A DNA stretch of 64,000 nucleotides from Thelephora terrestris (taxonomy: Eukaryota > Basidiomycota > Agaricomycetes > Thelephorales > Thelephoraceae), in contig WIUZ02000033.1 in the NCBI GenBank assembly GCA_015956445.1, forward strand, positions 1 through 64,000, in the 5' to 3' direction. Shown in pieces: positions 8,291 to 63,306 of the stretch. The notes beneath the pieces are model-generated. The model searched no databases. It was not told the origin of the DNA and saw nothing but the letters and a program-made list of their open reading frames with translations. A program made the translations under genes and the position numbers. Numbering within the stretch: position 1 is the first letter of the stretch; every line of letters starts with the position of its first letter.

Positions 8291-11200
8291 TCAAAGGTAC
8301 ACTTCTAGCTTCAACATGATAGGCTCTGGTGAGTAATCATTCCATACTACCAGAATATTTCTACCCCACCTCACTTGTGACTTTGCGTCTGGTCGCCAAT
8401 GATGGGGTAACCATAAGAGCTGCTTTCCACTGGAGGAGAGTATTCTTCCATCATCTGTGAGTTGATAGCCACAAGGAGAGTGCCAGGGGAAACCATCCTG
8501 TGGTGTTCTCCGGGTTCCAACTTTCTGTAGCTTAAGGCCATTGGATCCACCTTCTTCAACAATTGTCCACTGGTCCACTACACCATCGTATCTTGAAATC
8601 CAGACCCCACAGCTATCTGGAGTAAATCCTAGTATCCACCCTTCTGACCTGGCAACTGCAAGCTTTTCCCCATTGTGCATATTATAAACACATAGACCAA
8701 ATTCTAATCCGCCTAAAAATCCAATGGCAAGATAGTTGAGGTTGGGTGCCACAGATGCCTGTAGATTTTCAACATTTCCTGGGTTTTGGAAAGCAACTGT
8801 CTGAGCCCTATCAGCACTGAAATCATCATCCCTTCCAGGTAAGTTCCAAGTGACAATATTTCCATCACCAATGACAATGATTTTATCCTTTGTAATCTTC
8901 ACACCACAAATCACTGTATCTGCATCAATGACCAACCAAGGAGCACCAGACTTCATGGCAAAGACAGTAACTGTGTGGCTTTTCCTCTCTGCAACTGCAA
9001 TGAGTGATTCATCAGCAGATAAGTCTACAAGGAGATCATTATGGTCATGTGAAGCTTGTGTAGAGACACCAGAGAAGGAGGCAGAAGACCTTGCTATGTG
9101 CCATAGCTGAATAATTTTTGCACCAAATGAAGATGAGATCACTGACTCCCCATCTGGGGAAACAAGTGGATGGTTCCAGGGGCCCCTGGACATAAGCTTT
9201 TGATGAGGAAGATAACCACCAGGAGATTTCTTCCACAGGTACAACTCTGTCCCCTCAGTTCCACAAATGAAAAAAAGACCATCTGAGGAGAAGGAAATTC
9301 TTTGGGGCCTCTCAAGATCAACAGTATTTAGGAGGACCTTGTGGTTCTGAGCATCCCATACTACCACTCTGCCCTCAACAATAAATGCAAGCCAGGAGAG
9401 TGTGGGGAGCAGAACAAGACTGCTGGAAGAGATAACCTCTGGAGTGGACAAAGAGCCAACTCTTGTTGGTGTATCACCTGAGGTGAAGCTGACTTGCCAT
9501 ATGGAAATAGACCCTGAATTGACAGTGGCAAATAGAAGACATTCACCACAGGTCCAAATGGTATCAACAGCAGGTTCTTGAACTGGATGGGAGGATATGC
9601 AGGTATTGGAAAGAATATTGTAGGTCATGATGGTTTGGTGCAATAGAACCCCAAGCATTGTTCCACACTCAGAAAATGACATTGATTTGCAATAACCAAC
9701 TTCTTTTGTGCTGATGTCACCAATCACACAACCTGTCTGAAGGTCCCAAGTGACAATGCAGGCGAACCAAGAGTAACCCACTAACAAATGGCCATCTGGG
9801 GAGAAAACAATCTTACCCCAGTGACTTCCTCTGCTCTTGGGGTACACAGTGTAGAGTTGTTTGAGAGTCACTGCATCCAGAATCACTATTTTAGGGGAGG
9901 CAGCCCAAGTAACTGCAATGAACCTGCTGCAAGGTGACCACCCAACAGCAGAAATGCGTTCTGGAAACCTTGCATTGGCAATGCTTGGATCCCACAAGTC
10001 TGGGACTCCACAAATGACTTTTGCCAGTGGATCAGCTTGTGATCCATAGTATCTTTGCACAAGGGATTCCTTGGGGGATAGAGGAAGGGCAGAGTGGTAG
10101 ATGTGAGGAGCAGATGTGCTGATAACCTCAAAAAACCCCATGACAAATCTAAAGCAGTCATTGGCAAGGTCAAGAAGTGATGTGTCCTGGTTCAAGTCAG
10201 CAGATGTTTGCAATGTACTAAACATAAGAATTCAGCTCACCTCTGACCACTCTGCAACAAATTTTAGTGCATCAACTGCATTCCTCACAGCACCAAGGAC
10301 ACTCAGCACTTCCAACCAATACAAGAACTTCTTCTGAAGGAAGCAATAGAGAGCAGAAGTGATTTCATCCCTTTTTGTTGTAGGCTCATTGACAAGGTGC
10401 TTGTGCCAGAACCTGCATGCATATTGTAAACCCTGGCTGACGTACTTGTCTGCCCTCTCCTGCAAGTCTTCTACCTGAGAGTTGTTAACAGCCTCTGGGA
10501 GTTGACACATATTCTTTTCTAGTGTGTTGTTCATGAGGTTCAAGCAAAGGACCAAAAGGCCCAGGTGATGGGAGGGAGAGATGCAAAGCTTCTGGTTGGT
10601 ACAGCGGGTGGGATTGGTGATGAAGTCAGGAAAGGATTTATGGAATGGTCGGACAGGTTTACTGATATCTTCATGAAGGATAAGGAGGGAGTGGATTGAT
10701 GACAAAATGGGAGTCACATCCTCAGGATCAACTCCAAGGAGTGTAGCAATGGCAGATGGAGAGAGGGGATTGGCAGCAAGGACAATGGCAGCAAGTACAG
10801 AGTGGACTTTGGGATCATCTTCAGCACCATCACTCTTGAATGCTCCCTGAAGAATCAACCTATACAGTGAATCCAGGGATGTGTTTTCTTCAAACTCGGT
10901 TCCCCCTACATGAACACTGCCCCCTGGAGACTGCAAAAGGAGATCCAGCCGTTTTTTGGGGGGATAATTCTGGCTATCAATGAATTTGACTGTTGCCACA
11001 GCATAAACAAACAGCCCTGCTGCCCTCTCACAAAGGAGGTCCATCTGTTCCTTGGCAGGCCAGTGATCTAGCCCAGGATGATGATAGGCAAGTTCCAGGA
11101 GGCTCTCCTTGAAGAATTGTCTGATATCGCTGTTGACTTGATCTGGCTTGACCTCATGGAGAAGGAAGATATCTGTTGCTTTCGTCAAAAGGGGGAGGTG

Positions 11201-13116
11201 GAAGCCCTTCCAGATACGTGGTTCTGGGCGGCCAGTAAGGAAGAATTTGACCTTTGGCACCTGGAGTACAAATCGTGCAAGGACAGAAAGGATTGCTGAG
11301 GTGGACTCCTTGTCCTTACATTCATCCAGGGCATCAATGACAATGATGGTTGAGATGGAGGTCTCCTTGAGCAGCTGCACAATCAGCTTGTCCATCTGGT
11401 TGGAGAGAGAATCGTGGGCAACATCTGGATCTGAGTCTACGAGCGAGACAAAGATTGATCGGAATTCGGTGTACCTCTGGGCCAGCTGGACAGCGATGGT
11501 GGGAAAGATGAAGTGAAGGTTGCTCCGGTCCTCAAAGTCTCGTGAGCAGAAGAAGGAGGCACCAAGCTGTCCCTCTGCAAACATCCGCTCTGCAATTGTC
11601 TGTGCAATGGTGCTCTTTCCTGTCCCAGCCAAGCCGTTCAACCAATAGACAGGCAACTTGGTGAAGTCCCTTGCCCATAGCTCAATCTGGTCCAGCACCA
11701 TTCTGCGGGTTCCCTTCAAACATCCTTTGCGACCCTCCCGTCGGTACCCGGCCCCTGGTGCGCGGCGGAAGTTATTGAGGATCACCTTCTCAGCTGTAAA
11801 AGTCTCATGTCAGGGTCCTGCTGTTAGAGGTGGATCGTAGTCTGACCTGCATCCTGTTTAGGAAAGTCAGTTCTCTGCTCAGAGACAAGATTCAGCCATG
11901 TGGATACTCACAATCAACTTGCACCCTTGGTTGTAAATTGCCATTTGTTGCACCATCTGCAGTCATTGTCAACATTGAGATCAGTGCTGAGGTCGCAAAC
12001 AAACCTGGTAGTCATTGATAGCCTCCCGCAAATCTTCGAGGAGCCCAGAAACATCTTCATTGTCCTTGACATGATCGGCAACGCGCAAGATTAAAGACTT
12101 CTGGGGAAACAGTCGCAATGTTTCTTCGATGGACTTGAATTTTCTGAGAAGCTATGAGTGTTTGGGTTGTATGGAAATCGGTTCCATCCACACACGTTTG
12201 TAGTTCTTTGCGGCGGTTTTTTTCGGCATCATCATCAGTGGGCTTTTCGAAAACCTTCTCCAGCGCAGCGACGCGTGAACGGAGGGATTCAACTTTGTCC
12301 ATGACAGCAGCAGTGTCCTGGATATAGATCGGTCAGAATGATTTTTCGAAGGAGGGTGATGGACGAGCCTGGTATTGGGCATAGACGGCGGAGATGGTCG
12401 CTAGGGTGGCTTTGAGGGGGCTGAAAGCTTCGGCAGCGCCCATGGCAATGTCAGCTGCAATTCCAACAACCCCGATGGCCCTGTCCTTCCAGTCTCTTAT
12501 CGCGACTGGCAGACTTCAGTACACTTAGAAGACAGCGAGGGAATCGGCGCTCACCCCTAGATTCACCCGACTGAACAGTCTCCTGGGCGTTTCCGTCAGG
12601 GTGAACGCTTTGAGTCCCGACTGCAGCAGGTGGTGTCGCTCGATCTTGGTTCTTCCCCTCCTTTTGAATTCCTGGCTCCCTCTGACCGACGGGGGAGAGA
12701 TCGCGGGCGATCAGACCGGATCCTTCGTTCGGTGCGTCCAAGGGCACTTGTCTTTCGTGTTCTGGATCGTGTGTCGTGATCAGGATTGCAGGCGTCGGCC
12801 TTATCAGTCGCAGCAGGATGCACTCACGCGTAATAGTATCCTCAAATCCGGGAGTCGCAGGCGATACATCCGATGGTTCGGGCTGCCGATTCACGATGCC
12901 TCGATTTACAATTCTGTATCCTCTCCCACCGTTTGACCCTGGTGGGGTGATCAGATAGACATCATCGGGCTATGAACGGAACACACCTTTGGGCCCAACG
13001 TCCGGGCTTAGATCCGCACCAATGCCGAGAGGTCCTGCGGCGATGTGGGTGGGGATGAAGAAAGCAAGAGTTTGAGAAGGTTGGAAAGATTCTTTGGATT
13101 TCTTGTACCACGGCAT
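8291..13116 (-). CDS. NACHT-WD40 STAND protein, copy A (NLR-like)
   Basis: A fungal NOD-like receptor-type protein. Exon 1 (12987-13116) begins MPWYKKSKESFQ and carries AAGPLGIGADL, matching exon 1 of copies B and C. Several small helical exons follow, including ESLRSRVAALEKVFEKP near 12.3 kb. The NACHT ATPase part has Walker A GLAGTGKST, Walker B VIDALDEC and the sensor-like FLTGRPEPR. A 54-nt intron at 10187-10240 removes an in-frame TGA and joins NACHT to about 630 residues of degenerate WD40 repeats (FSPDGHLLVGYSW, VTWDLQTG). In known STAND proteins NACHT drives nucleotide-dependent oligomerisation and WD40 senses a ligand. Exons between 11.8 and 12.9 kb are only partly resolved. The 3' half is almost devoid of CpG. 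Confidence 0.85.
8711..9763. other. CpG-free tract inside NLR-A
   Basis: Reading every line, no CG dinucleotide occurs between the one at 8710-8711 and the one at 9763-9764, about 1.05 kb, although C and G are both common here. CpG is sparse from 8.3 to about 11.1 kb and becomes normal toward the 5' end of the gene. The reading frame stays open throughout. Confidence 0.9.
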
Positions 13117-14744
13117 CGTTGTGTAGACGTTCGGGATGAAGTGCCTGCAGCGCCCGACCACGTGCCTTGATGCGGTTGGCTGAGCGCGGGGATTCAGCCA
13201 GATTTGCTGGACGTCGTTTACGGAACGAACGATGCCAGATACATATTATAAAGTTGGCGACTCGGACTAGTTTCGCATTTATCTACACGACCGAGACGAT
13301 TGCAGCCCATGAAATTCGCCTTAGGTACACCAAAACCTGAGTCGATGAACGTTGGTCGGGATTACAGCAAGAATTTAACTGCATGGCGGGGCTCAGAAAT
13401 CATCCACGGTCAATGGTGCGGGACAAACTTCGGAAATGTTCTGAGGGAGCGCGAGTTGGTGCAATATTAGTCCATGACCATCACGCCCGAATAGCATTTG
13501 ATCGGATTGGCGTAGTTGATGAGATGAGAGCATGGAAGGCAAGTCTGTTGATGACGAACGGCATAGGTAGAAAGCTCGTACGTGAGAGCTGCCGGTGGTC
13601 AGCGGATATATCGCAGGGACAATCGCAAGTTCTGAAAACGTACATGCGGAAGATTCCTACTCCGAGTGGATCACGGCTCAGCTGCCCCAACCTCCGGATT
13701 GGTCCTACTATCGCATTGAGACGGCAGGCGCTGTCATCATCACGCAACGCGGTGTGACTAGCAGTATCAAACTCGCATGAGGATGGAAGAACGGAGCGTT
13801 AAGTGGGGCGCAGAAGAAGGTAGGCCGACGTTGTCTTCAATCCCTGACGAAAACTCGGGAGATGGTGGAAGAATCATCGCAGATTGATTTCGGCAGAGGG
13901 GGTGAGGGAAATCGCCCGAACGAAGCTGCTGGCATATATTCGGGGGGGATGGGACTGCTTGGTTTCAAAGACGGAGGTGTGCGAGCGAAGAAGGCGTTGT
14001 GCGTCCCCCTCATCATCACCCCGCAGCTTCGCAGCAGCCGATCGAGTTTTCCCTCAGCTCTTCGTACCACATCACATGGGGGAGACAGTGCTACATCCCT
14101 CAGCGGCGATCGTCAGTATTAGTACGTGGTCTGCTTGAGGAGACTAGGGAGACAGCCATCAACGTTTCAACGTGCGTGTAATCTTCAATTCGTCTCCGAA
14201 CCTTCCCAACCGCATCTCTGTCTCAGATTCAATCCTCGAGACATTGCCAACCTTCTTTCTACACCTCCTTGGACCGACTAATACCGCTCTCGTCTAGTAC
14301 TAATTCCAACGCGACTGTGACCGCGACTTCGCGAAGTAACACGGGGAGATTTGGATACCCTCATCTTTGCGCGTTCTTTCTCTCGCTATGCTCGTGATAT
14401 TGTTTTGAGTTTTCTGGGCAGACGGGCAGGTTTGTTCTTCGCCCGGGTCACATCCGCTCTCAATGTCAACGATGAGACCCAGCTCCACTTGCATTTCACC
14501 CAACCCAGCGACACCTTGTTTACGATTATCAGCAACATCTCTCGCGGGCACCCCCTAGCCCACCTCAATCCCGTCTTGCCTCAGTGAACTAGCTTCGATC
14601 CCACCATCGTCCGCGGTGAAGCTATCCTTCATTACAGTTTGGCCGTCTCCCTTCCTGCCGCGTTCATCGCTGTCCTGTGTGAGCGGGGGCTTACCGACAC
14701 CCGTAACTCCATGGTCGAGACACCCAAAGATGACGGAGAGTCTA
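13117..14744. other. Gene-poor stretch, no gene seen
   Basis: Upstream of NLR-A. Many short open frames occur on both strands with no splice logic or family resemblance. It borders two gene relics on the right and may hold further decayed sequence that cannot be recognised by eye. Confidence 0.45.
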
Positions 14745-14990
14745 TTCCAATAATCAAAGAATGCAAGGTGGTGCCCCGACCTCGCGGGTGATAGTTGCCA
14801 GCAGCACCTTCGAAACCCAAACCCCTACCCGTGCAGCTTCGCGCATCTTCGCTCTGCGGCGTTCCTTCGTACGCCCTCTTGCGAAAGCGCCTGCGACGAT
14901 ATCTTCGAGATGCACTTCGCGTAGATACACAAAATGTTCTCGGGTGTATCTGGCGAATGTTGAACGTTGAACGTTGACGGAGCGATGGGA
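14745..14990 (-). pseudogene. Relic of exon 1 of the multispanning membrane protein gene
   Basis: On the minus strand this reads YLREVHLEDIVAGAFARG, TKERRRAKMREAARVG and WVSKVLLATI. It aligns with YLRKIHLEDIVADAFAKG, TKERLRARLRTVVRVG and WISKVLLATI of the fuller gene at 19.2-19.5 kb. Nucleotide similarity is visible over about 245 bp but is much weaker than between the copies at 3.5 kb and 18.2 kb. Neither the N-terminal part nor later exons are found, so this is an old fragment. Confidence 0.7.
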
Positions 14991-15024
14991 ACTCATATGA
15001 CAGCAACCGGAGTCCGACTCGATG

Positions 15025-15260
15025 GGTGCTCGACGTGGGAAAACTCTAGCACGACGTGCTTGATCTCGTCTCCCAACCCACGCTAGGGATCTTCCCGCTG
15101 TGGAATTCCTGTAATCATGGGGCTTGACCAAAGCATGATCTACGCACGAATTTCCTGCGTTACTGATCTAGAGACGGATGGACTTTTGGCCAGAGATCTG
15201 GGACGCGAGCCATTCGGTGGAGCTCAAGGTACTTGTTTTTGCCGACAAAGGAGATCGTGT
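15025..15260 (-). pseudogene. Relic of a glutathione S-transferase gene
   Basis: On the minus strand a frame reads GKNKYLELHRMARVPDLW, matching [18 protein letters not shown] of the GST gene at 15.8-16.7 kb apart from a three-base insertion. Downstream, a TGCTTTGGTCAAGC stretch matches the ACTTTGGTCAAGC region of its next exon, and a GGGAAGATCCC stretch matches GAGAAGATCCC. No complete frame is left. The relic touches the membrane-protein relic on its left. Confidence 0.65.
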
Positions 15261-15780
15261 GCTGCCTCAGAATATAGACTTCTCCCTCCCATGCAATCCG
15301 CGCGCACGTACTGCGCTGTAGAGCATCTTTTATCCTTGGAGCCGCAGGACCTGCGTAATCCGAGGACCTCGCGTTCCTCCAGCTGGGTGCACAACTCTGC
15401 CGATAGGAAGTTCGCTCGGGGCAGCCGATATAAAGAATCGCGGTGTCGAGACGATTACGCGTCCATTCGGCTCGTGAGGAGCATCTGAGAGGCCAGGGTC
15501 TCAAAATGTGCGATTGAACATTGACGATGGTGTGTTGCTTGTCTCATGCAAATTTACGAGTTCCTTTCCTAGTCAACTAAAATTGCTCATCCCTCCTCCG
15601 CACTCAATGACGAGGAGCTAGGCTGCACAGTCCGAGTATGGATTAATGCAAGAGATCGGTCTTCCATCCTTGTAGCAGAAGGGTCACACGACATTCGACT
15701 GGTTCACGTGTATTGTTGACAAGTGCGTACAAATAATTCAGATACATAGCCCTAAGAGGGCACTTCGCGAAGGAGGGGGC
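15261..15780. other. Intergenic, no intact gene seen
   Basis: Lies between the GST relic and the GST gene. It may contain further decayed upstream exons of the relic, but similarity is too weak to place. Confidence 0.4.
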
Positions 15781-16665
15781 CTAATTCTTCTGAAGGCTGG
15801 TTCTGGTCGCATAGATCTTCTTAACCGACTCCCTCTCGGTCAGTTCTTTGTGCCACCTGTTCGACCGTCAGTTCCGATCTCATCCGCATCGAACTAGAAC
15901 CGCGTCACTCACCTCGCGAGAGCGGGGTAATCCTTCTCGAGGTCGAGATCGGGGACCAACGACGAGTTCACAACCCCAGAGTTCCAGGGAATAAAGGACA
16001 GGTCGGCGATGTTCACCTTATCCCCAACCAGATACTTCTGCTTCGAGAGCACGCTATCTAACACCCCGAACACTCGCTTGATCTCGTTGTTGTACCTCTC
16101 GATCGCACTGGGGATCTTCTCGGCGTGTAATCTCTGGAACCACGCTGCTTGACCAAAGTATGGGCTGTCTCGCTACATTAGAAGGGCATTCTACATGTCA
16201 AAGGCATGCATACCCTTGACCTGAGACCTGGAAGGCGAGCCATTGGAGCTCGATGTACTTGTCCTGACCAGTGCTGGAAACCTTGTGATTCTTATCGTAC
16301 TTGTCAACCAAGTATTCCAATATCGCGAGGGTCTCCCTGGATTTTGATGAGCCCTCGTCCAACGGCAATAACTGCGGCAGAAGCTTACCAAACGACGAAG
16401 TCGTTGTTGCGGTGGTCGATGATGGCGGGGATGCGACCGTTAGGGTTGACCTTCAAGTACTCTGGCGCCTTGTGCTCTTTTTTGCTGAAGTCGAGGTACA
16501 CAGATTCGTACGTCAACCCCAGTTCTTCAAGGACGATGGCGATTTTCCTGAGGATCAGATTGGCTGTCAGATGGTCGTTGAAGTTAGCGAGGAGCAGGTG
16601 AGAACTTGCCAGCCGTTGGGGCCACCAGTGTGGGTGTACAGGGTAAATTGTTTTCCGTGAGACAT
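15781..16665 (-). CDS. Ure2-like glutathione S-transferase, possibly defective at the first splice
   Basis: Exon 1 starts [19 protein letters not shown], the thioredoxin-fold opening of fungal Ure2-like GSTs. Then come [103 protein letters not shown] and the end [15 protein letters not shown], stop at 15781-15783. These enzymes conjugate or reduce with glutathione in the cytosol and act in detoxification. Most introns join in phase. The first does not: exon 1 runs TGG CAA before GTTCTC, but the next exon needs phase 2 (G|AAA ATC), so one extra base seems present. Either an unusual splice is used or the gene is recently broken. Confidence 0.8.
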
Positions 16666-18039
16666 TAAAAGCTCGCTAGGGATTTGACTTGAGAAGACTC
16701 GCCGAGGTGGTTGAGAGGATGGACTCGTTGGTTGCTTTCTCCTCCCCTCACCTCGCTCTGGTACTTATACCCTATGAGCGCTCGTGAGTTTGTCATTCCA
16801 TTTACGCACGTCGTTCTCACATGTATCACGCATTGGTCACCCGTGGTGTACGTAGATCCCAATCGCCTGATTAGGGTCGAAGTTTCCTCGGGTACTGTAT
16901 CACAGGCCCGCTCCTGGATTGGCGTGTGACCAGCATGACACGGTACATGCAACCATGAAGCAACGAACCCGCCAGGGGCAGAGGGAGAACTTTGCAGTCC
17001 CTACAGCCTGAGGGTGTGTAACGCTCGCTATGAGCCCGGAGATCACAGGACTGCCATCCTGACACATATTGACTACGTGTCTGCTATTGAAATGTTGATC
17101 TCCCATGTCCATTGCGTGCGATCGAATGTGGTTCTTTGACGTTCCTGATTACTCATTGAAATACCGAGAGCATGACTCAGGCGCAGTTTCTTACAAACAA
17201 ACGAGGAACGCAAATAAACGGGAACCAGTGGGTGAACGGTGCACCTTTGTCATATTTTGATGGCAATGTACACGAAATCCAATGTGCGCAGGTTGCTCCT
17301 TGGCGAAGAACACGCTCCGGCCGGGAGCTGAGACCAAATCTGGTGAGCTGACCCACTCTCGAGGAGTCTGCTGGCTGCATATACTCATGTTGCGTGGGGA
17401 AGGGTGACAAGATCTCGTAAAACTGTTTTGTCAACATATTTGACATTGGGGGGGATATTAAATTGCATCCTCGATGGATGTGTGAAACCTCAGGGCACCG
17501 TATGCAGGTAAACAGCGTCGCGAGGGGTTGCCTACACTGGTCACCCCGACGTTCTTGGTTGTTCCTGTCGCATGTTCACTGTCAGAGTGCGCCGGAACCG
17601 CAGACGCAATACGACTCTCCAAGCCGCTGAGTCCCAACAGAGACTCATTCTGTCCTACTACCGACTCCTCGTTAACGTTCTGCACCAAGTTGTTTCCTTC
17701 AGATATCTCGTTACCTGGCTCTGGCCATTCCAAAACACGTGCGAGGATACGAATTGTGTAGAGGTGCACAGGTTATCTGCGCTCGTTATAGGTCGTAGCT
17801 GGTAGGCGTACCTAGTGTCACAACGAATCGTGGCAAGGGTGTAGAAGAGAAGGGAACAACATACAACAGAGTCGGAAAACAAGAGCGGCAGTGAGTCAAC
17901 TATGTACTAAACAGAAAACTTCAACAAGAAATCAAGATCGTGTAGAGATTTGGGAACGGAGATGGGTCGATGGAAAGCCCTGCAACCACCCCCACCGTCC
18001 GTCCACACTGAGTGTCGGTGTTCCAAGTACTTCATAATT
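16666..18039. other. Intergenic, no gene seen
   Basis: Upstream of the GST gene and downstream of the membrane-protein gene. Open frames of up to about 103 codons (17458-17769, minus) show no family resemblance, and an opposite-strand frame covers the same bases. Confidence 0.45.
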
Positions 18040-19765
18040 TTACCATTTACCTGCGAGCCGTCCTCCAGCCCAAACTAGGCAACCACCACCAAAGGGGATG
18101 AGGAGTATCCAAGCACCGATGTCCCATACCAGCCTCCGGTATAGACGGCGCCTCTGTAAAAGGCGTTCTTTTCGTTGCAGTAAGGGATCATGCATGGCTG
18201 AATCGGGCTCCGTGAAGCTCCGCGTTGGTTGTGTTTGGGGAGGCAGTATAATTGTTAGAGGTCTCCGGATGTGATGTAAAGTTATGTGGATCGCGGCTGT
18301 GAAATGGCTTTAGTCGGCTTTTCGGGTGGGAGACATGGGAAAATTCGGTACCTGGAAGGACGTACGTTCCAGCTAAGATATAGACCAGGGCTACATTGCT
18401 GAGAACATGGAAGAACTCAGGTGTCCCCACGGCCAAAGTAAAAATGACAACAGCTGATACAAGGTGTGAAATAGATGCATTTGTTACATGACGGGATCGG
18501 AACGGGAGGGGGATAGTCGGAATGTTGACGAGGATCTGTGGTACCGTCAACATGAGGGTGGAAGCGTGTAGGACCGCTCGTAATGGTCGTGGGAACCTTT
18601 TGGCATCATCCTGAGCGGGGAACTTGCTCTGTTGAATAGAAATGTTTAAAGATTGCGCAAGGAGGACTTACTGTGGAGAACGGGGAAGAATTGAAGAATG
18701 CCAGTGGGAGGATCAGGGCGAGAGAAGTTATTCCTGACAAAATTAGGAGTGTCCTGAAAGATTGGTAGGCTTTCGTCTTGTGCTTGTGGTTCAAGTGTCC
18801 CGCCTTTAGCGAGCTGTAAAGGGAGACGGTCGACGAAGCGGTGAAAGTGAATGCGGCAGGGGCTAAAATCCAAATGAGCAAGGCGTATGTGCGCATACTG
18901 CAGATCGACCCACAAATGCCGTCCCAAAGGGAACCCAGGCTTGTCCAGCTGGCACTTGCCTCTAGGCTACCTTGTCCATGAGAATGGGCGGTGCAAGCAA
19001 ACCAAGCTACATAAGTGATGATGGAGAGGATCGTTGGGACAACAGCACGCTTTGAAGCAAGGGTGGACACGGTCGAGAGTGGAAGCACCCCCAGCAAGAG
19101 AACGGTGGTCCAAAAAAACCTAGAAGATACAAGGTCTCCTTCCGGCATTAATGGGAGAACGAGGCTGACGGAGACTGAGGGGAGTTAATATTGATAATCA
19201 AAGAAGGCGTGGTCGCGCACGAACCTCTCAAATAAATGGTTGCCAATAGCACTTTCGAAATCCAATCACCCACTCGTACCACTGTGCGAAGCCTGGCTCT
19301 AAGACGCTCCTTTGTATGCCCCTTTGCAAACGCGTCTGCGACGATGTCTTCGAGGTGTATTTTACGTAGATACCGAGCAAGAAGATACCATATGTATCTG
19401 GCGAATGTTGACAGAACAAGGAAAACGCATATAGCAGCAACCATCCGAGGACGTGGTACGTTTCCGTCCGGGATAAACATGGCACCCAACCCCAGGAAAG
19501 GGGAGACAAGATAGAGATAGACACGGCTCGTCAACAGCGGGGTTGCGGACGAGGCTAACCAGTCTAGCTGAGCAGGGTCGTATTCGCCCTCGTCGTCTCC
19601 GTCTGAGAAATAGAATGGAGTGTCGATGTCGTCCTCATCGTCCGGAACGAGAACGATCAAATTGTGGTGTGAATCGGGTTCAACGTTGCTGGTAGTTGTG
19701 AATGGCGTCCTCTCGTCGACCGAAAGGAGGGAATCTACTGAAGCATTTCTGCCTGCGTTGTCCAT
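18040..19765 (-). CDS. Multispanning membrane protein, possibly a distant amino-acid-transporter relative
   Basis: The fullest copy of a family with three traces in this window. The N-terminus (MDNAGRNASVDSLLSVDERT) and about 70 following residues are acidic and soluble. Membrane spans follow: YLYLVSPFLGLGAMFIP, MVAAICVFLVLSTFARYIWYL, FFWTTVLLLGVLPLSTV, TILSIITYVAWFACTA, FRTLLILSGITSLALILPLA and LSNVALVYILAGTYVLP. An intron at 18198-18351 joins YVLPA to the last exon, which reads MHDPLLQRKERLLQRRR, then WDIGAWILLIPFGGGCLVWA, and stops at 18040-18042. The overall plan recalls vacuolar amino acid transporters, but I see no diagnostic motif, so the role is uncertain. The junction between the first two exons near 19150 was not fixed exactly. 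Confidence 0.7.
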
Positions 19766-19895
19766 TTAGAAAAGAACTGGGGGGTTCAGTGGAGGATGAT
19801 CATGGAGCACGAGAAAGCTGGGGGCCGGGGCGGATTCGATTGGGGTTCCGTAAAGTCAATGACTAATCACAATTTTCCGTTTCCATCACCTCACG

Positions 19896-26002: not shown

Positions 26003-26017
26003 ATTTAGACAGCAGCC

Positions 26018-27727: not shown

Positions 27728-27982
27728 CCACCCTCACCTCATAAAGAGTCCTTTCGACACACCGGTCGACTGGAATCCGGGGAGAAGGTATCTCTGCACA
27801 TTCAGTGTACGAGAGATGTGTGTAAGGATAGAAGATGTTGCATTCGAAACACGGGGACCACAGTTTTGACAAGTCATGTTAACGTAACCTCAGTAATGGA
27901 AATCAATGACAAGAAATTTCTTGGTTCGATAATCTGCTCGCAATGTGTTCCGATTTGAACCAACTCCTATACGGCCTGAAAG

Positions 27983-31548: not shown

Positions 31549-31802
31549 AGATCCGTTTCAAGGAGGACCACTCATAGCGGAACGAGATGATTTGGGGAGG
31601 GGAAAGGCCCGAGAAGATTGTGGATTTGAAGTTGTACGATGTTACAGATATATTTGGAGAACATAATCATGAGGTAGACACCCGCAGAGTTCGGGGTACT
31701 AAATTTTTTGAAGTGCGGTGAAAAGTGTGATTCGGGGCTAAGATTGCCTGGAAAGACCGTAGCCCTGAGACGTTGATGACCACAAGTGTCACTGATGTCC
31801 AC

Positions 31803-32809
31803 TTACTCGTCGCCGGTCCTGGGACTGGGAGTGAGATAGTATTGAACCCTCCCATGGCCAAACCGGTATAGGACCTTCGAAACTGTCAGCTTGAACAAGA
31901 ACGAAAGAACGGGGAAGAGTGAGTTGGATCACCAGCAGGGGGACGTTGGCGTTCATCCCCATCAGAACTTGTGGGGAGAGACTCTCGCTCTTGGCGATGT
32001 TTACGAGATACTTCAAGCTGAAGTTCAGGGTAATATCTTGGTTGGTGACGATCGACACCCCGCCTTCATCCTCTGTATGTTTCAGCAGGATGTTGCCGTC
32101 TGCGGACGCTCCCTCGGTGGTGAATTTCACGTCATCTTTGGAGACATCTACCCTGACGGATTCTCCGAGAACTGAAAGCTCACGGACGATACGCAATAAT
32201 TCTTCTGAAGGCAGTTTTACACGAACGTCATAGTAGGTGTCTGGGATGTCGAAGGTATTCGTGTCCATGTCAATGAGCTTCAATCTATACTTCGAGATTC
32301 GGCCGGCATCTAGATATGGGGGGGCCGAGTTAGGTATTGAAGGTGACAGGGAGGGTAACGAAATAGACCCTTTGCTTTGTAGGTCAAGTGGAGCATGCCA
32401 TCGTCGGCGGCGGCGTTCAATATGCAAACGTCGTCGTCCTTTGCACACTTCAAAATCTTGGCGAAGGAATTTAGGTGGACGCCTATCGAGATGGGGCTGT
32501 CGCAACGGTAGTTGACGAACACAGCTTTCTCGAGCTGGACGAAGACGTGCGCGACGTGAGAGTTGTCCATCGCCTGTAAGCTCTGAAAATCGGGGTGCGT
32601 TGAGAAGCGTGTTGTGGAACGTGAAGTAAAAATGCGAGAGAAGCGTACGATACCCTGTTCGTTGCATTGGAAGTTTGCGTCCGTTATGAGTTCCTTGATA
32701 GCTGAAGTTGTAAATCAGGTGTGAAGCGGGTTTGATGGTGGCCCTAGTAACCCGTACCTTCGAGGAGCTTCTTTAGAGTTTGAGCCTCGGCAAGCTCAGC
32801 TTCCAACAT
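31803..32809 (-). CDS. PCNA sliding clamp, copy 1 (diverged, no insert)
   Basis: PCNA is the homotrimeric DNA clamp for replication and repair. Exon 1 is MLEAELAEAQTLKKLLE, followed by AIKELITDANFQC and AMDNSHVAHVFVQLEKAVF. Then come FAKILKCAKDDDV and the linker region IDMDTNTFDIPDTYYDV. The second domain has LRIVRELSVLGESVRVDV, DVKFTTEGASADGNILL and LNFSLKYLVNIAKSESLS. The last exon reads YRFGHGRVQYYLTPSPRTGD, where PCNA normally has YYLAPKIGDE. The loop after GNILLK is short (HTEDEGGVS), as in human PCNA. Divergence from the neighbouring copy at conserved positions and the altered C-terminus suggest relaxed or changed function. It shares exon layout with copy 2, so the pair arose by tandem duplication. 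Confidence 0.87.
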
Positions 32810-33573
32810 GTCGACCGGCGATGGAAGTCAAAGTGGGGGAGATGGGTGGGGTTGGGTGGCTACCTGGACTTGACCCATCTGAGGTTGCCGTATGTAACGG
32901 CCAACGTCATCAAATCGGTCTTAGCCACTTATACAGAAATACACTTGCCTTGGGGTCATTTTTAGTGCCATGGGTGTTGATGCCTAAATTCCCACAGTCC
33001 AGAATGACTACTGTCAGTGCTGCTGGGGGAAACGAGCAAGCACTGGCCTTTCCCAGAGTAACAGAAACCCGATCAAAAAGCTCCTGGAGCTCCTCTGCAC
33101 GATAGAACTCAGTTCACTCGTTTCGACCCTGTAAGCAGCAGAGCTGAGGGTGGCACGTTGGGGATGGTTCACGTTCAAGAACTTCGTGCAGATAAATGAT
33201 GTCATCATAGTGATCAGGCCCCGTGGAATGTTTTTTGAGCAGGCACGAGTATACTTTCGGTCCTAGTCGGTCGTAAGAAGTAGATACAACTTAATGGCTT
33301 TGCCAGGCTCAATCGCAAGGTGATATCGAAAATCATCACCAGCTGAGCTGGCTCAGGAAGGACGATGAACTCAACCTCCGACTTCCTCTCCTCGCTTGGA
33401 CGGTGGTGCCGATCGGTAGCTCATCGCACCTATTTGATGGACTTGTATGAGATTACAGATACTTTTGGAAAACCTAATGAGATAGACACGTGCAGAGATC
33501 GTGGTACTAAGAATGTTGGAGGAATGCGATTCGGATTAAGACCAGCATGACCACAGTTGTCATTTCCGTCGAA
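32810..33573. other. Spacer between the PCNA copies, with duplicated 3' flank
   Basis: The part at about 33430-33560 is similar to the flank just below copy 1 (about 31630-31800): GATGTTACAGATA versus GAGATTACAGATA, then GGTACTAA in both, then GATGACCACA versus CATGACCACA before the stop codons. This is the 3' flank of copy 2 and shows that the duplication unit included the flank. No gene is seen in the rest. Confidence 0.6.
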
Positions 33574-34965
33574 TCACTCGTCGCCGATCTTGGGAGCGAG
33601 GTAGTAGTGGATCTTCCCTTGGGCAAATTTGTACGCGACCTGTGGACGTGTAAGCACGAAAGGAAGAGGAAGCGGGGTACTGACTTACGAGTAATGGTAC
33701 ATCGGCGCTCATCATCAGTTGAACTCGTCGGGAGAGGCTCGTGCTCTTGGAGAAGTTCACGAGGTATTTCAAACTGAAAGTCAAATTGACAGCTTGGTTC
33801 ATGTCGATTGTCACCCCTGCTTCATGTTCGTCGTCATCGTCGTCGTCGTCAGACCTTTTGGCACGTTTGGAGGGCTTGGAAGACTGGAAACAAAGCCGAG
33901 TGGAATAAGTCGAGGAAAGAACCGTCATCCCAAGCGACGACAAACCTTGGAGGAGCCCTTCTTCCTCTTCTTGCTGGTCGTGTCCTCGTCTTCGTCGTCA
34001 TCCTCGTCATCGTCTGGCTTAGCCTCTTCATCGTCGTCATCCTCTACCATCTCGACATCGCCGTCAGAAGCACCCTCCTCCTTCTTGACCTTTGTTTTCT
34101 TCTTCTTCTTCTTTGAAGACTCTCCCTCCTCCTCCGACTCTGGCTCAGCGTCTTCCTCGTCTTCTCCATCATCTTCTTTCTTTACCTTGGACTTTTTGCC
34201 CTTCTCCTTTCCAGCCCGTTTGAACTTGCTCCGCGCGCCCTCGGCTTGTTTGAGGAGAACATTGCCGTTCGCCGACTCTCCCTCGGTCGTGAATCTCACG
34301 CCATCTTTCGAGACGTCGACCTTGACGGATTCGCCAAGAACTGAAAGATCACGGACGATACGCGCGAATTCCGCCGACTCCATAGTCACACAGCAGTCGT
34401 ATTCGGTGTCTGGGATGCCGAGGGTATCAGTGTCAATGTCCATGAGTTTTAATTCGTAATCCGAGATTCGGTCAGCATCTAGAAGTTAGGGCGAGTTAGA
34501 TATTGTAGTTGATGGGGAGGGGGAAGAACAAACTCTTTGCCTCGTAGGTCAAGCTAAGGGTATCGGCATCGTCTGCAGCCTTCAAGGTGCAAACATCGTC
34601 GTCCTTAGCACATTTCAGGATCTTCGTGAGGGAACCGAGGTTGACACCCAGAGGGATCGGCCTGTCGCAACGGTACTTGGCGAACCCTGCTCGTTCAAGC
34701 TCGACGGACACGAGCGCGACGTGGGAGTTGTCCATCGCCTGTAAGGTCTAACATCGCGATGACTGGTAAGTGTCCGAACGCGAGGACTAAGGTGTCGAGA
34801 AACACGTACGATACCCTCTTCACCACATTGGAAGTTCGCGTCCGTTACGAGCTCCTTGATGGCTGGGGTTGTAAATGAGTGGAATCGCGTTTGATAGCAG
34901 TCCATGAACGTACCTTCAAGAAGTTTCTTTAGAGTTTGAGCCTCAGCAAGCTTGGCTTCTAACAT
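33574..34965 (-). CDS. PCNA: PCNA sliding clamp, copy 2 (with long charged insert)
   Basis: The more canonical copy. It has MLEAKLAEAQTLKKLLEGT, AMDNSHVALVSVELERAGF, LTKILKCAKDDDVC, IDTDTLGIPDTEYDC, FARIVRDLSVLGESVKVDV, GVRFTTEGESANGNVLLKQ, LTFSLKYLVNFSKSTSLS and the classical end FAQGKIHYYLAPKIGDE. Between GNVLLKQ and AGVTIDMNQAVNLTFSL, where PCNA has a surface loop of about ten residues, sits an insert of roughly 120 residues made of Lys, Glu, Asp and Ser runs (for example KKSKVKKEDDGEDEEDAEPE, DEDEDTTSKKRKK, SKRAKRSDDDDDDD). An intron interrupts the insert. Basic clusters could serve nuclear import. The frame is open on both sides, so the insert is real coding sequence and not a frame artefact. 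Confidence 0.9.
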
Positions 34966-35775
34966 GTTGACACGCGATACAAGTGGGGGGAGACGAAGGG
35001 TGGTCGAAGGTGGAGGTGATTAAGAACTGGCGCGCCAGGTGACGCGTCACAGACGCGTTGACTTGATACATCGCGTGACCTCTCCATGGCCCAACGGCCT
35101 TGAGCGGGTCGACGATACGGGTCATTGATTCTGCAGAAGGCAGCGGGATACACAAGCAGAGGCAAGGTTTCTTGCCGTTGTTCTCAATCCATCATAACCC
35201 TTCGTCACCAACATAACGATCGAGAATCATGGGACGGATCTATAATTGCTTTCCTGGTCGATTCGAGGGGAAAAACGAGCGTGAGGCAGACAGAGCCCAT
35301 TGTAAATTCGGACGGACGAGTTGTAAATTAGAGGAAGGGAATTCTTGTAGATACTACATCAACTGCTCTCGCTGTATGCTAGGTCTAGCGGTATATAATG
35401 AGAGGCGGGGAGGACGACGCGCGGAAGATCCGTAATCGTCGTTGATCGCCATCGCTCCAGCTGGCTTCCACGTTCCACAACTCTCGCCTCTTAAACTTGC
35501 CCAGTTTCCAGAACTACATATCACTGACGGTGGTCATCTGTCTCGAGTCAAGGAAAGTCACGGAGGCCGTAGAAGCTGACTCGATCACAGCCACTTAGAT
35601 GGCTACTCAAGCACTCGCCACAGATCCACCCTCCAAGATCCCTACTATAAAGTCCAACGTCCCTTGTAGCTCTCACATCCTCGACGCTCGCGGATCCTGT
35701 CAGTCAAGGTGCGCTCAACGGTCGCTGCGAGTCTGACCGAGATTATCTCCTCTGATCGCCACCCCCGATAGCGGA
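34966..35775. other. Intergenic between divergent PCNA copy 2 and F-box-like gene
   Basis: About 0.8 kb that must hold both promoters. No protein is recognised; a CT-rich stretch precedes the plus-strand gene. Confidence 0.5.
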
Positions 35776-37191
35776 ATGGACCAGATTGCACAGGAACTCA
35801 TCGACAAGTTCATTGACGAATTGCACGACGACGTCCAAGCCCTACAGTCCTGTTCTTTGGTTTCCAAGCGTTGGGTTTACCGCTCACAGTTCCACATCTT
35901 CTCCAGAATCATCATTTCCTCCCAGCAATCCTTCCAACGATGGTGTAAGAACATCCCGCTCGACTCCTGCCCCGTTTCCACACACACACGCACTCTATCC
36001 ATACTCCAACCCACACACGCTCAGTGGCTCACCCCTCTCCTCTTGAGCCCCGCCACGGATCATTTCGATGCTTTCAACAACGTCAAGACCCTCGCTTTGT
36101 CTGGCATCACCACCCGTGGTTTGCAAGACGCTCAACTGCTTGCGGATTGCTTTCGGCGCCTCGGGTCTTCTGTCACTTCCCTCAAACTCCTCTACTGGCG
36201 AGCATCTCCTGCTTCATTGATCAACAGCATCTGTCTCTTTTCTCATGTCGACGACCTGGACGTCTATTGCCCAGATATCTTGGCAGGGTTGCCAATGCGA
36301 AAGGCTTACCCTTCCATCCCGCCTTTCCGTGGTCGTTTGGGTTTGCGCTTCGAACACGGTCGAGGGAGCATCGACCGCTTCTTGCGCCTTCTATCTCAAC
36401 TCCCCACACATTTCGTGGAGGTCCACGTTTCCATGAGTTTCGCCGGTGGTCAAACGCTTTTGCTCCCTTTCCTCGAATCTTGTTGTAAATCCGTCCAGAA
36501 GCTTTTTATTTCCTACGAAACCGAACAAGGTTCGTACCCTGTGTTTTATTTCTCGTCTTCTGTGCTGATTGTCACGTGGACAGCCAATTACACCCACCTC
36601 TTCAAGAGCATCAAGTTCACAAACCTCCGAGAATTAACTCTCATCCCTCACCACGCAAAGAGCGCAAACCTGGACGGCTTCCTTACTTCTCTGCTCCAAG
36701 CCATCTACTCTTCTAGCCTCGCGTTCATCAGACTCGATCTCAACGACTATGAATCATATGTGAACATGCAAGAGCACGCCGATCCTAACTTGTGGAGCGA
36801 GACCGACATCGCACTTGCCAGTTCAGCTCACCATTCCACCGGAAAATTGTGTTTACGACTCGGGTTGAGCAGGTTTAGATCTACGGATTGGCAGATTCCC
36901 CTCCCCCGTTTCAAGGAATGTGGTACCCTGGAGAGGGTTCATTCGCCCATCTATCCAAACTACCACCCCCTTTCTCCCCATTTTGAGCGCCCGGAGCCTT
37001 TCAAAGAGCAGTACGCCGCAGAGAACGCGTATTGGAAGATGGTGGATACCGTGCATCGTCATATAGAAGCAGACACGACTTTTCGGAAGCTGGATGGGTC
37101 GAAGAATCGGACAACTGATGGTTCTTCTCTGGCTGAGAAGATTCGACGGCGAAATGTGAGGAAGAGGAGAGACACCACACGACCGGTCTGA
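35776..37191 (+). CDS. F-box-like protein
   Basis: A protein of about 450-470 residues. The start MDQIAQELIDKFIDELHDDV followed by LQSCSLVSKRWVYRSQFHIF is the basidiomycete F-box pattern (helix, SLVSKxW, helix). The rest is leucine-rich without clear repeats (VKTLALSGITTRGL, VTSLKLLYW, NLRELTLIP). It is likely an adaptor of an SCF ubiquitin ligase. The stretch 36528-36581 has a donor (GTTCGT), a branch-like CTGAT and an acceptor (ACAG), is exactly 54 nt long and has no stop, so it is probably an intron that leaves the frame open whether or not it is removed. The C-terminus is basic (RRRNVRKRRDTTRPV). Confidence 0.8.
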   Translation: MDQIAQELIDKFIDELHDDVQALQSCSLVSKRWVYRSQFHIFSRIIISSQQSFQRWCKNIPLDSCPVSTHTRTLSILQPTHAQWLTPLLLSPATDHFDAFNNVKTLALSGITTRGLQDAQLLADCFRRLGSSVTSLKLLYWRASPASLINSICLFSHVDDLDVYCPDILAGLPMRKAYPSIPPFRGRLGLRFEHGRGSIDRFLRLLSQLPTHFVEVHVSMSFAGGQTLLLPFLESCCKSVQKLFISYETEQGSYPVFYFSSSVLIVTWTANYTHLFKSIKFTNLRELTLIPHHAKSANLDGFLTSLLQAIYSSSLAFIRLDLNDYESYVNMQEHADPNLWSETDIALASSAHHSTGKLCLRLGLSRFRSTDWQIPLPRFKECGTLERVHSPIYPNYHPLSPHFERPEPFKEQYAAENAYWKMVDTVHRHIEADTTFRKLDGSKNRTTDGSSLAEKIRRRNVRKRRDTTRPV

Positions 37192-37960
37192 GTTTATTGT
37201 ATGTACTCTAGGCCTGAAGGACCTTTTGCATATTGTATTAAATTTTAGTTTTACCGGGGTTTCCTTGATGGTAACTCTTTAGCCTGGACTGAAGCCTCCC
37301 TTACGGACGGAGGTGGTAGCGGTGTATGTAGGCGGTTCTGTATTTATGTTTACTCATCGTTCATCGGTCCTCACGAGGTGAATTAAAGAGCTGAAGTGAA
37401 ACACGACATGTCTGCCATAAGGACAGTGGCTTTCTCGGTTCATACATATCAAATCGGGAAAAACTTGATCGACAATCATTCCGATGAGAAGTCCGTTCGA
37501 CTCACCAGGAAATTCAAATCCATGGATATGCTGATCATGATAATGAGCACGTTAAGTGAGGTTTATGATGTAAAGCATGTAACGAATACAACACAAGCCA
37601 ACTCTGTCTGTCAAGCATGTCAGGCGCTTTATTCCTGTAGTGCCTTGGACTTAAAGCCAGGGGTATGTCGATTTTGAGCATGCTGACTACATGAAAACAA
37701 AGTGAGATCCTGGAATTGCCTCAAGGGATTTTACACAGGGGTATTTTTTGTTGGTGACCAACACTATGTCTGCTTGAAACCAATGTTTGATTTGCACACT
37801 GGACACCCAAATGATTGGAACAACTCATTGATACTTACACTGAGCAAAAGAAGGGATCGCAAAGAACTATCTCAATGTTACTGAAACATAAACAAGAGAA
37901 AATGAAGTAGTAGGGAACTGGAAGTGGATTTAGCAGAAAGGTGAAAAAGCTAGCTCTAGG
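37192..37960. other. CpG-poor flank of NLR-B, no gene called
   Basis: An open frame of 93 codons at 37396-37677 is the longest and has no family resemblance. From about 37.7 kb CpG becomes very rare and the poor tract continues into NLR-B. Confidence 0.45.
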
Positions 37961-40900
37961 TCAATCAAAAAATTCTAGGATAACAGCTGCTTGTAGCCCA
38001 CTGTGCCCCAGCCCAAGAAACTGACCACTCCACACTCTGGTCTTCTCGTTTGACCTCCAATGATGTGGCAGCCACATGAGCCGCTTCTGGGTGGGGCCCA
38101 ATACCCACCCATCATGAGTGACTTTGTAACCACAGTGTGACTGCCAGGGAAAGGCTTGTGGCAGGCATGTGGTTGTCTCCAGAGGCTCCAGCTTAGTGAT
38201 GCTGGATTGGTTGTCTCTGATGATGTTCCATCCTTTCAAAGAACCATTTGCAGCCATGTGCCAGACCTCACAATCAGTCAAAGCGATCCATCCCACACTA
38301 TTAGATACATCTGCATATGCAAGCTGCCTCCCAGTAGGCAGGTCACCAATTATTATATGGTTAAATGTTGTGAAGGCAACATAGCTGAGATCAGGGGATA
38401 TTGATTTGCTATATGAAAGGGTATGGCTGGTTATTGTAGTATGGACACTGTCATCAATGCCTGCCCTGGCAGTAACACAGTTCCTTGCAGGTAGGTTCCA
38501 GGTAACAACCCCCCTCCAACCAGCAACAGCAATGGAGCTTCTTGTTATCCTTAGGCAACGGATCCTCATACCCGTATCAATGGTCAAATGTGGGTTACCA
38601 GACTGGAGATCAAGAATTGTGACTGTTTTTTCATTATAATGTGCAAATGCTGCCAGCTCTTCATCTGGGGAGAATTCTAGAATGAATCCCTTACGGTCTC
38701 CATGGCCTGGAACATTAGGAAGGGGAAGAATCCTATCCTCTGTGTGCCAGAGGTAGATTGAGGAGTTGTTAACAGTGATGATTGATTCTCCATTTGGGGA
38801 GAAATGCAATCTCATTGAGAAAGGGGAGAAGTCAAGCCTTTGATGAAGAATGTAGCCATCAAGTGACCTCTTCCAAATAAAAACCTCTCTATCATGTACT
38901 GCATATGAAAAAAAGCAGCCATCAGAGGAGAATGCCATCCCAAGGGGCCCAGTACAATAGAGGATCAAACTGGGCCCATATCTCAGAAGGAACCTGGAAT
39001 CTTGTGCATCCCAGACTAGAATTCTGTCTGAAACAGCAAAGGCAAGGTAGGAGAGAGCAGGAAGGAATAGAGATCTTTTGTACTTCACATCAAGAATCTC
39101 ATCTGGTGCAGCAAAGCATTCAAGCATTACTGGTGTGTGTACTGAGGCAAATGCAGCTTCCCATACAGTAATTGCTCCTGGTTTGACAGTGACAAAACGA
39201 AGACATTCACCATGGGTCCAGATTGGGGGCACAATGTCTCCTTCTGGAGGATGATAAGGATGTGTGTGAGTCCCAGCAAGGAGATTGTAGGTAGTAATAC
39301 AGGTGGGGCCATAGTATGAAGTATTTGAGACTGCAAGTATATTTCCATCTATGGAATATGTAACTGAGAAGGCATCCCCAGAATACAGATGATTGCTTTC
39401 AGCCAAGAATGCAGGCACAACTTGACCACCTGTTTGGAGGTCCCAGCTGGTGAGCTTCTCTGAGCCAAATTGGGTTAAAGTGCAACCATCTGGGGAGAAG
39501 CTGAGCAGTTCACATTTTTGAAGAGTCTTGAAAGATTTAAGTTTCTCAAGAGTTGCTGCATCAAGGATTTCTATTGTTGTAGATTTGGCCACAGCAATGA
39601 ACCTGCTGCATGGTGACCATGTAGCAATCTCCTGAAAATCTTCATCATACATGGTGGCAAGAACTGGATCCCATGAAATAGGTAACCCTTGTACAATCCT
39701 TACTGGGGGGGAGGCATATTGCTTGTACAGCTTGCACACAATTGATGTTTGGGGGGATAAGGGGAGTGCAGAGATGTAGATGTGTGATGCAGATGTGCTG
39801 ATTACATCAAAGAATTTGAGTATGAAATGAATATAATCTGTGGTAAGCTCAAGAGTCTCTGACACCTAGATCCATCCAAATAAACTTTTGAAGTAAAATC
39901 AGACAATGAAATACAACATACATTCAGCCATTTTTCTGTTGCCTTCAATGCATCAACTGCTTCCCTTGTGGCACCAAGGACACTGAGTACCTCCAGCCAG
40001 AACAAAAACTTTTCCTCCAGGAACTGGTGTAGGATAGGTGTGATTTTGAGCATTTGGGTTGATGTCACATTACTGAGGTGCTTGTACCAGGATCTGCAGG
40101 CATATTCCAGAGATTTGTCTATGTGTTGCTCAGTCCTCTGCTTTAGGTCCTTGACTTCCATGTTGGTGACCCCATTTGGGAGCTTACACATATTCTGCTC
40201 CAGCTTCTGGTTCATTAGCCCAAGACAGCCAACCAAGAGTTCTGTGTGTTGATCAGGAGGGCAGATGTGAAATCTCGAATCTGTGCACCGGGCCATATCA
40301 ATGAGGAAGTCAGGAAAGGACTTGTGGAAGGGCTGAACAGGGAGAGTGATATCCTCTGGGAGAACAAGGAGTGAGTGAACAGATGACAGGACAGGAGATA
40401 CATCTCCAGGATCAAGGCCCAGGAGAGCTGCAATAGCGGACGGAGAAAGAGGATTTGTGGCAAGGATAACAGCACCCAGAACTGACTGGACCTTGGGGTC
40501 ATGCCTTGGATCATTGTCACCAAAGGCTTCATGAAGAATCGACATGTAGAGTGAATCAAGTGTCATGTTTGCCCTGAGTTTGATCTTACCCTCAGAAACA
40601 CTCTCCTGTGACCTTATGAGCAAGTCCAGCTGTTTCTTGGGGTTCTGATTTTTTTGATCGATGAACCTGAGTGTGGCCATAGCATAGATAAACAGCCCTG
40701 CTGCACGATCACAAAGCAGGTCCAATTGTTCTTCAGTCGGCCAGCCATCCAATCCCTGCCGACGGCGCTGGATTTCTGAGCAGTTGTGTCTGTAGAACAG
40801 CCGTATATCATTGTTGACTTGACCCGAGTTGACCTCATGGAGGACGAAAATATCGGCTTCTTTGGCCAACAGTGGGAGACGGAAACCGTTTCGAATGCGT

Positions 40901-60219: not shown

Positions 60220-60244
60220 TGGCACACCGTTAAGGCTCAATTTG

Positions 60245-63304: not shown

Positions 63305-63306
63305 TA

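Follow-up and report, generated by a model that had tools for sequence, protein, structure and literature searches.

What removes every CpG from more than a kilobase of coding sequence and still leaves the reading frame open? The question is raised by two of three paralogous NLR-like genes, here termed A, B and C, in a stretch of Thelephora terrestris contig WIUZ02000033.1 (the window: 64,000 bp of a 68,930-bp contig). A first-pass annotation of this DNA had pointed out the CpG-free tracts in A and B and had suggested cytosine methylation and deamination aimed at duplicated genes, with selection keeping the protein. We followed this up in the window and in whole-genome searches over 40.6 Mb in 60 contigs. 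Our answer is that A, B and their kin probably bear the trace of a CpG methylation that is old, inherited and gene-body-like and that concerned a subset of the NLR-like genes. The basis of this reading is a CpG-specific loss on both strands, a gene-shaped depletion profile, inheritance by clade, independence of neighbors and of the nearest copy, and selection on the protein.

The tracts are as the annotation described them. In gene A no CpG occurs between those at 8710 and 9763, which leaves a gap of 1,053 bp; the corresponding gap in gene B, between 39198 and 40276, measures 1,078 bp. A CpG scan identified these as the two longest gaps in the window; the third longest, of 504 bp, adjoins the gene B tract. 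Judged by their own base composition, the tracts should hold 52 and 51 CpGs. The background, three stretches joined to 52 kb, has 0.068 CpG per base and a longest gap of 119 bp, and at this density the chance of a gap as long as 1,053 bp is about 5e-33 per CpG. In 500-bp bins TpG/CpA was raised in the depleted parts, up to 1.25-1.67. The matching WD exon of gene C was indeed CpG-rich, with 123 CpGs, and the long open frames of A and B were borne out as well (Table 1, where CpG content is given as the observed/expected ratio, o/e).

All three genes lie on the minus strand, and each consists of one NACHT exon and one long WD-type exon. NACHT profile scores for A, B and C were 31.4, 35.6 and 32.1 bits (curated cut-off 26.7), with NPHP3_N E-values of 1e-26 to 2e-28, while every WD-type profile match stayed below its curated cut-off. 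An AlphaFold model of the gene A WD exon (three sequences, mean pLDDT 64) gave approximately 60 helical residues, a gap and then strands. Foldseek matched the model to propeller proteins, including a two-propeller structure and Apaf-1, at E 3e-22 to 6e-19 and TM 0.2-0.5; a comparison of the gene A NACHT exon with solved structures returned no match at E 0.01. By these profiles and this model, A, B and C would qualify as fungal NLRs, which are recognized by a NACHT-type NTPase and C-terminal superstructure-forming repeats.

The losses are of the CG to TG or CA kind. Among 63 CpGs of the WD exon that are common to most undepleted paralogues, gene B keeps 4, and 46 became CA (25) or TG (21), so both strands are affected alike. 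When transitions were tabulated by context, B had them at 23/56 of the conserved CpG bases and at 35/283 of the C/G bases conserved elsewhere (odds ratio 4.9, p=2e-6). Locus L038, a further depleted paralogue, behaved similarly (26/56 vs 45/291, p=2e-6); gene C did not show the enrichment (8/66 vs 23/335, p=0.20). A TCG-type context was considered and rejected, the TCG share being 0.314 in depleted exons and 0.291 in the others. CpA was not lost either (o/e 1.52 in depleted exons vs 1.22; TpA/ApT 0.54 vs 0.56). The lack of a TCG preference and the retained CpA speak against the ascomycete kind of repeat-induced point mutation (RIP), and neither its CpA preference nor its nonsense mutations with loss of function seem to be present here. 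The CpG context would suit methylation induced premeiotically (MIP) or a CpG-type RIP. CpG-specific C-to-T change on both strands supports the annotation's proposal of cytosine methylation and deamination.

We then asked how far the pattern extends beyond the window. The survey comprised 31 WD exons, namely the best 30 of 74 matches to the gene A WD exon plus gene C (A, B, C and 28 others). CpG o/e fell into two classes, with 18 exons at 0.03-0.22, 12 at 0.76-1.06 and a single one, L035, at 0.51; beyond the window there are thus 16 further paralogues with the A/B-type depletion. L035 was grouped with the undepleted exons in the tree, composition, profile and nearest-copy tests and was excluded from the undepleted group in the context test. 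Its near relative L037 has an o/e of 0.76, and L035 is perhaps a gene switching state. Among the eight best NACHT loci, the second half was CpG-low in L001, L003, L005 and L008, and not in L002, L004, L006 and L007; L003 and L041 are one gene, and L052 is a further depleted gene outside the tree.

Control regions did not behave this way. All eight kinase and all eight P450 regions had a CpG o/e of 0.87-1.10. Integrase regions of retroelements were CpG-normal in seven of eight cases (0.84-1.16; the remaining one 0.49). Twenty random 400-bp pieces, drawn from 18 contigs (32.7 of the 40.6 Mb), gave 17 values of 0.83-1.16, two near 0.5 and one of 0.11. Genes B and C are adjacent and in opposite states, as are L026 (0.07) and L031 (1.06), which lie about 4 kb apart; these pairs led us to reject regional chromatin as the cause. 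Convergent neighbors were likewise discarded as a trigger, since opposite-strand frames turned up behind depleted and undepleted genes alike when the downstream 1.5 kb of 30 loci (3 kb in the case of A, B and C) was checked for open frames.

The depletion follows the gene and, in many of these receptor-like genes, takes in about the rear two thirds. Over the 18 depleted loci, median o/e in 250-bp steps across the 1.5 kb before the WD exon was 0.64, 0.49, 0.49, 0.21, 0.16 and 0.04; it stayed at 0.06-0.12 within the WD exon and recovered past the stop to 0.10, 0.35, 0.76 and 0.87. The 12 other loci ran at 0.67-1.18 over the same profile, with their minimum around the stop. This profile leaves out gene C, and its row for L025 counts part of the exon as flank because the match is cut by a frame change. 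Of the CpGs shared by undepleted paralogues, gene B retains 29/36, 10/34 and 1/10 in successive thirds of the NACHT alignment and 4/63 in the WD exon, and L038 retains 25/36, 14/34, 1/10 and 4/63. The annotation had the depletion strongest in the 3' half and fading toward the 5' end in A and B alike. This describes B well but not A, where most of the NACHT exon is depleted too, as it is in L040 and L044. In the latter two, NACHT and WD form one unbroken frame of more than 1,150 codons without the usual break, CpG-poor over nearly all its length. As read from the CpG profile rather than from transcripts, the 5' end appears spared and the signal bounded by the transcription unit, as in gene-body methylation.

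Past the stop, the depleted domain ends after approximately 250-625 bp in L027, L029, L038, B, L040/L044 and L041, six genes outside the A clade whose 3' flanks mostly have no common sequence. Within the A clade, seven kin have about 400 bp of 3' flank in common and are depleted across most of it. The 3' flank that A and its closest copy have in common with the other clade members extends for only about 70 bp, and CpG recovers early behind these two. From this comparison the history of depletion seems to travel with the DNA, a newly joined flank being only partly worn.

In a maximum-likelihood tree of the WD exons the depleted label needs 4 changes, compared with a mean of 10.3 after shuffling (0 of 500 as low). 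Depletion extends to all 11 members of the A clade, which are as little as 53% identical to A at the protein level, and we therefore consider the state to be old. Read from the CpG scar rather than from the mark itself, inheritance among gene copies appears stable.

We propose that CpG methylation would have been carried for a long time in inherited nuclei, over a domain, presumably the transcribed body, that begins some 0.8 kb inside the NACHT exon and ends a few hundred bp downstream of the stop. Spontaneous deamination of 5-methylcytosine, on one strand or the other, would convert CpG to TpG or CpA until hardly any CpG remained, and selection would purge those changes that harm the protein. 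The mark would be set or maintained gene by gene and would accompany each gene when it is duplicated or moved, in the manner of gene-body methylation in animals and plants; its presumed keepers are the genome's DNMT1-like and DNMT5-like enzymes. The combination of CpG methylation, deamination and protein selection appears well supported. We infer that 5-methylcytosine is the cause, that the genes are transcribed and which enzymes maintain the mark.

Several points weigh against this reading. Reviews describe gene bodies as mostly unmethylated in basidiomycetes, and fungal methylomes place 5-methylcytosine mostly on transposons instead (PMC7862722, PMC13297926). CpG loss serves as a proxy. No more than four events may be needed for the clustering in the tree, and 31 exons picked by likeness to A do not give the depleted fraction of the whole family. 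Any repeat-wide methylation left no mark on seven of the eight integrase regions, which may be young. Moreover, not every marked copy is intact: internal TAA or TAG codons occur in L025, L029 and L041 (3 of 18 depleted exons) and in L042 (1 of 13 others), whereas in the remaining depleted exons such codons stand at the match ends or are absent. The remainder of the L025 exon continues in another frame. Introns or breaks may account for these interruptions.

A process in which copies are sensed by homology, methylated and mutated, that is MIP or a CpG-type RIP, seems unlikely to us, although it has points in its favor. The family is large (at least 91 NACHT places in the genome), CpG-type change of repeats has been reported in basidiomycetes (PMC4352252, PMC4457147), and a mark triggered once and later maintained and inherited would give the same tree pattern; an ancient trigger followed by faithful maintenance may have operated. 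The depletion, however, does not follow similarity. The median identity to the nearest copy was 0.883 for depleted and 0.886 for other exons (Mann-Whitney p=0.53; comparisons within the 31 exons, CpG/TpG/CpA sites left out), and four undepleted pairs are 84-97% alike. The NACHT exon, the less depleted one, is the better conserved (78-81% DNA identity among four undepleted genes, compared with 68-71% for the WD exon), and B and C are 79% alike over 2.46 kb despite their opposite states. Because the state is independent of the nearest copy among the 31 exons compared, differs between neighbors and is weaker in the conserved NACHT exon, we reject the targeting of duplicates, as the annotation had it, as the main rule. 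The mostly CpG-normal multi-copy integrase regions, the ends of the depleted domain before mostly unrelated 3' flanks and the lack of TGA stops described below point the same way.

The annotation had also considered silencing in progress, and a heterochromatic shut-off of copies that slowly decay into pseudogenes would account for some of the data. Marked genes or alleles are weakly expressed in other basidiomycetes, namely genes with high 5mCG fractions in Coprinopsis cinerea (PMC8889193) and the lower-expressed allele in the rust Puccinia striiformis, to which gene-body CpG methylation is tied (PMC12129025). The ratio of replacement to silent substitution rates (dN/dS) is higher in depleted pairs (0.60-1.07, six pairs) than in others (0.22-0.60, five pairs, one with the intermediate L035), the internal stops are found in 3 of 18 versus 1 of 13 exons, and at C32:22445-24390 lies a decayed relative of gene A, its frame interrupted by many TAA, TAG and TGA codons. 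Yet the rise in dN/dS is due in part to the loss of those silent sites that mutate most readily, and the frames have mostly been kept: 15 of the 18 depleted exons have no internal stop, and 10 of the 11 A-clade copies are open. A methylated CpG can change on either strand, and one of the two choices is silent where its C occupies codon position 2 or 3. In B and L038 together the silent direction outnumbers the other by 63:12 (p=1.7e-9; B alone 35:4). Six undepleted genes pooled, with fewer losses, gave 40:22 (difference p=0.01). CGA codons fell from a mean of 4.5 in the 13 other exons to 1.5 in the 18 depleted ones (averaged from counts), without a single in-frame TGA in the latter. The annotation's suggestion that selection keeps the protein is thus supported, and silencing with decay fits badly and is in our view improbable.

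Methylation-driven hypermutation could itself be the function, speeding change of the sensor domain for selection to pick variants, as was proposed for RIP in the NACHT/WD genes of Podospora. The annotation had likewise raised a diversification route. The depleted part is the sensor half, and the protein pays for the CpG loss: arginine drops from 5.64% to 3.05%, and of 13 aligned CGN arginine codons (one a gap) 2 still encode arginine in B. Gene A can be compared with its closest copy, L017. They diverge by 7.5% in the WD exon and 7.0% in the 300 bp behind it, and by 2.0% in the NACHT exon, 4.5% in the region upstream of it and 2.7% downstream. Omega amounts to 1.07 for WD and 0.31 for NACHT (p=0.004 for the replacement/silent ratio). 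An omega near 1 may reflect diversifying selection or weak constraint. The 95 replacements showed no enrichment in loops over strands (48 in 264 loop and 43 in 296 strand residues, p=0.25). Against this proposal, only 6 of the 146 WD-exon differences are CpG changes, while 60 are transversions, so that CpG decay is not the main driver of sensor change today; its fuel is spent. The losses, moreover, went mainly in the silent direction, and the 3' flank is depleted too. CpG loss has therefore altered residues, as a diversification route would require, but hardly contributes to the present difference between A and its copy, and hypermutation as the function of the mark strikes us as quite improbable. 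Finally, a cause other than methylation (transcription-linked deamination, codon preference or a foreign CpG-poor origin) would explain why the tract follows the gene body, but with losses about equal on both strands, a depleted 3' flank, only part of each gene affected and conserved GpC sites in B mostly kept (38 of at least 58), it is very improbable.

The enzymes that might maintain such a mark were searched for by PF00145, which matched in four places of the genome. From sequence motifs we take the genes at C1:985-988 kb and C15:291-294 kb to be DNMT1-like (one with a BAH match below cut-off), the C58 gene to be DNMT5-like and the C56 gene presumably DNMT2-like. The two DNMT1-like genes show CpG depletion of their own, with an o/e of 0.0-0.27 in most 500-bp bins of the portion examined; L009 (DNMT5-like) and L012 (DNMT2-like) are CpG-normal at 1.04 and 0.91. 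Self-marking of methylase genes is possible on this composition. We put forward tentatively, as a possibility rather than an expectation, that a gene-body system marks part of the NLR repertoire and its own DNMT1-like genes, is kept per lineage through duplication, moves and large protein change, and may hold receptors in a low or conditional state with the protein functional. The methylase complement resembles the agaricomycete set given for Coprinopsis, Laccaria and Agaricus, which has two DNMT1 and one each of DNMT5 and DNMT2 (PMC7862722).

The pattern has partial likenesses elsewhere. With the gene-body CpG methylation of animals and plants it shares a spared 5' end, a CpG-depleted body, stable inheritance with the gene and proteins under selection; it differs in its occurrence in a basidiomycete, in its restriction, among the sampled loci, to a subset of one receptor family and two methylase genes, and in being known here from sequence alone. 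The Puccinia striiformis case indicates that a gene-body CpG signal is not unheard of in the phylum. There, measured 5-methylcytosine concerns alleles of secreted-protein genes and is clearest around the start codon (PMC12129025), whereas the trace described here is a scar in the sequence of NACHT/WD genes, leaves the start untouched and is common to whole clades. In Podospora, RIP has been found in NACHT/WD (NWD) pseudogenes and proposed as a source of mutation for receptors (PMC1805685), which resembles our case in C-to-T change in fungal NACHT/WD genes and in the proposed link to receptor diversity. Its details are reversed, however: in Podospora the context is CpA, NACHT and flanks are mutated, WD is spared and stop codons arise (PMC1805685), while in Thelephora the change is CpG only, WD and 3' flank are mutated, the front of NACHT is spared and TGA stops are lacking.

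CpG to TpG change is also known from Rhizoctonia solani AG8, where it lies within coding genes as well and is spread genome-wide (PMC4014442), and from Ganoderma sinense (PMC4457147). Those changes are genome-wide or in transposons, and here they are limited to certain genes, with gene-shaped edges and untouched neighbors. NLR paralogues of Arabidopsis differ in body methylation as these do, with highly variable NLRs less methylated (PMC11093987); unlike there, the CpG-depleted gene A has a fast-changing sensor domain. The CpG methylation maintained by DNMT5 in Cryptococcus is a long-kept mark too, but is tied to centromeres and transposon remnants and not to receptor genes (review PMC13297926). 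In the accessible literature, which holds few of the subscription papers and the 2010 and 2019 comparative methylome studies through reviews only, we found no published account of an A/B-type pattern, and a search for NACHT together with mushroom methylation gave nothing on fungi, judged by title.

Table 1. Positions of the genes and CpG features discussed in the text (window coordinates unless a contig, C, is given).
Feature	Position	Strand	Loci	Remarks
Gene A C-terminal exon	8294..10231	-		646 codons open; approximately 60 helical residues, then predicted WD-type double beta-propeller; CpG o/e 0.07
Gene A NACHT exon	10235..11809	-		NPHP3_N E 2e-28, NACHT E 2e-7; graded CpG loss, o/e 0.29
CpG-free tract, gene A	8711..9763			From CpG positions
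CpG-depleted domain, gene A (approximate edges)	8150..11800			From CpG bins and profile
Gene B WD-propeller exon	37964..39865	-		634 codons open; CpG o/e 0.08
Gene B NACHT exon	39805..41556	-		First third mostly CpG-normal, last third depleted
CpG-free tract, gene B	39200..40275			From CpG positions
CpG-depleted domain, gene B (approximate edges)	37530..40440			Ends about 430 bp past stop
Gene C WD-propeller exon	42963..44954	-		CpG-normal, o/e 0.88; undepleted neighbor, 3.1 kb from gene B WD exon
Gene C NACHT exon	44958..46703	-		CpG-normal, o/e 0.99
Putative DNMT1-like gene 1	C1:984,111-988,313		L010, L014, L015	CpG-poor
Putative DNMT1-like gene 2	C15:289,413-293,677		L011, L013	CpG-poor

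The surroundings of gene A have a counterpart on another contig. A 6.86-kb block around A is 95.2% identical to C11:509,300-516,155 and is part of a segment shared with C11 (window approximately 4.66 to 18.24 kb), which is either an allele or a segmental copy. This segment is flanked, at 3475-4310 and 18233-19070, by two direct repeats about 0.84 kb long that are 93% alike; sequence searches of the genome found no further copies of them. Dispersed repeats of about 57 bp (window approximately 14090-14147) and 107 bp (3296-3402) occur on many contigs, roughly 72-100% alike. A third CpG-poor block spans 59000-64000 (o/e 0.05-0.57 per 500 bp) and contains an open frame at 61451-62440 whose match to a DDE transposase is weak and below cut-off (E 0.014); this may be an old DNA transposon. 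An Rfam scan of the window returned no match. Elsewhere in the genome many retroelement integrase matches lie in open frames of more than 1,500 codons, the sampled ones mostly CpG-normal, and the genome seems to hold young, intact-looking retroelements.

To our knowledge, fungi are generally thought seldom to methylate gene bodies over the long term. If 5-methylcytosine is confirmed, A, B and their kin would provide a fungal example of long-standing, gene-specific body methylation, in immune-receptor-like genes that are mostly intact, and this would run against the prevailing view that fungi largely abandoned gene-body methylation for its mutational cost. Per-exon CpG o/e is a cheap sequence test that can be used on any basidiomycete genome. 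Confirmation would also make the function of the mark open to direct study, since marked and unmarked members of the family lie side by side, as in B and C.

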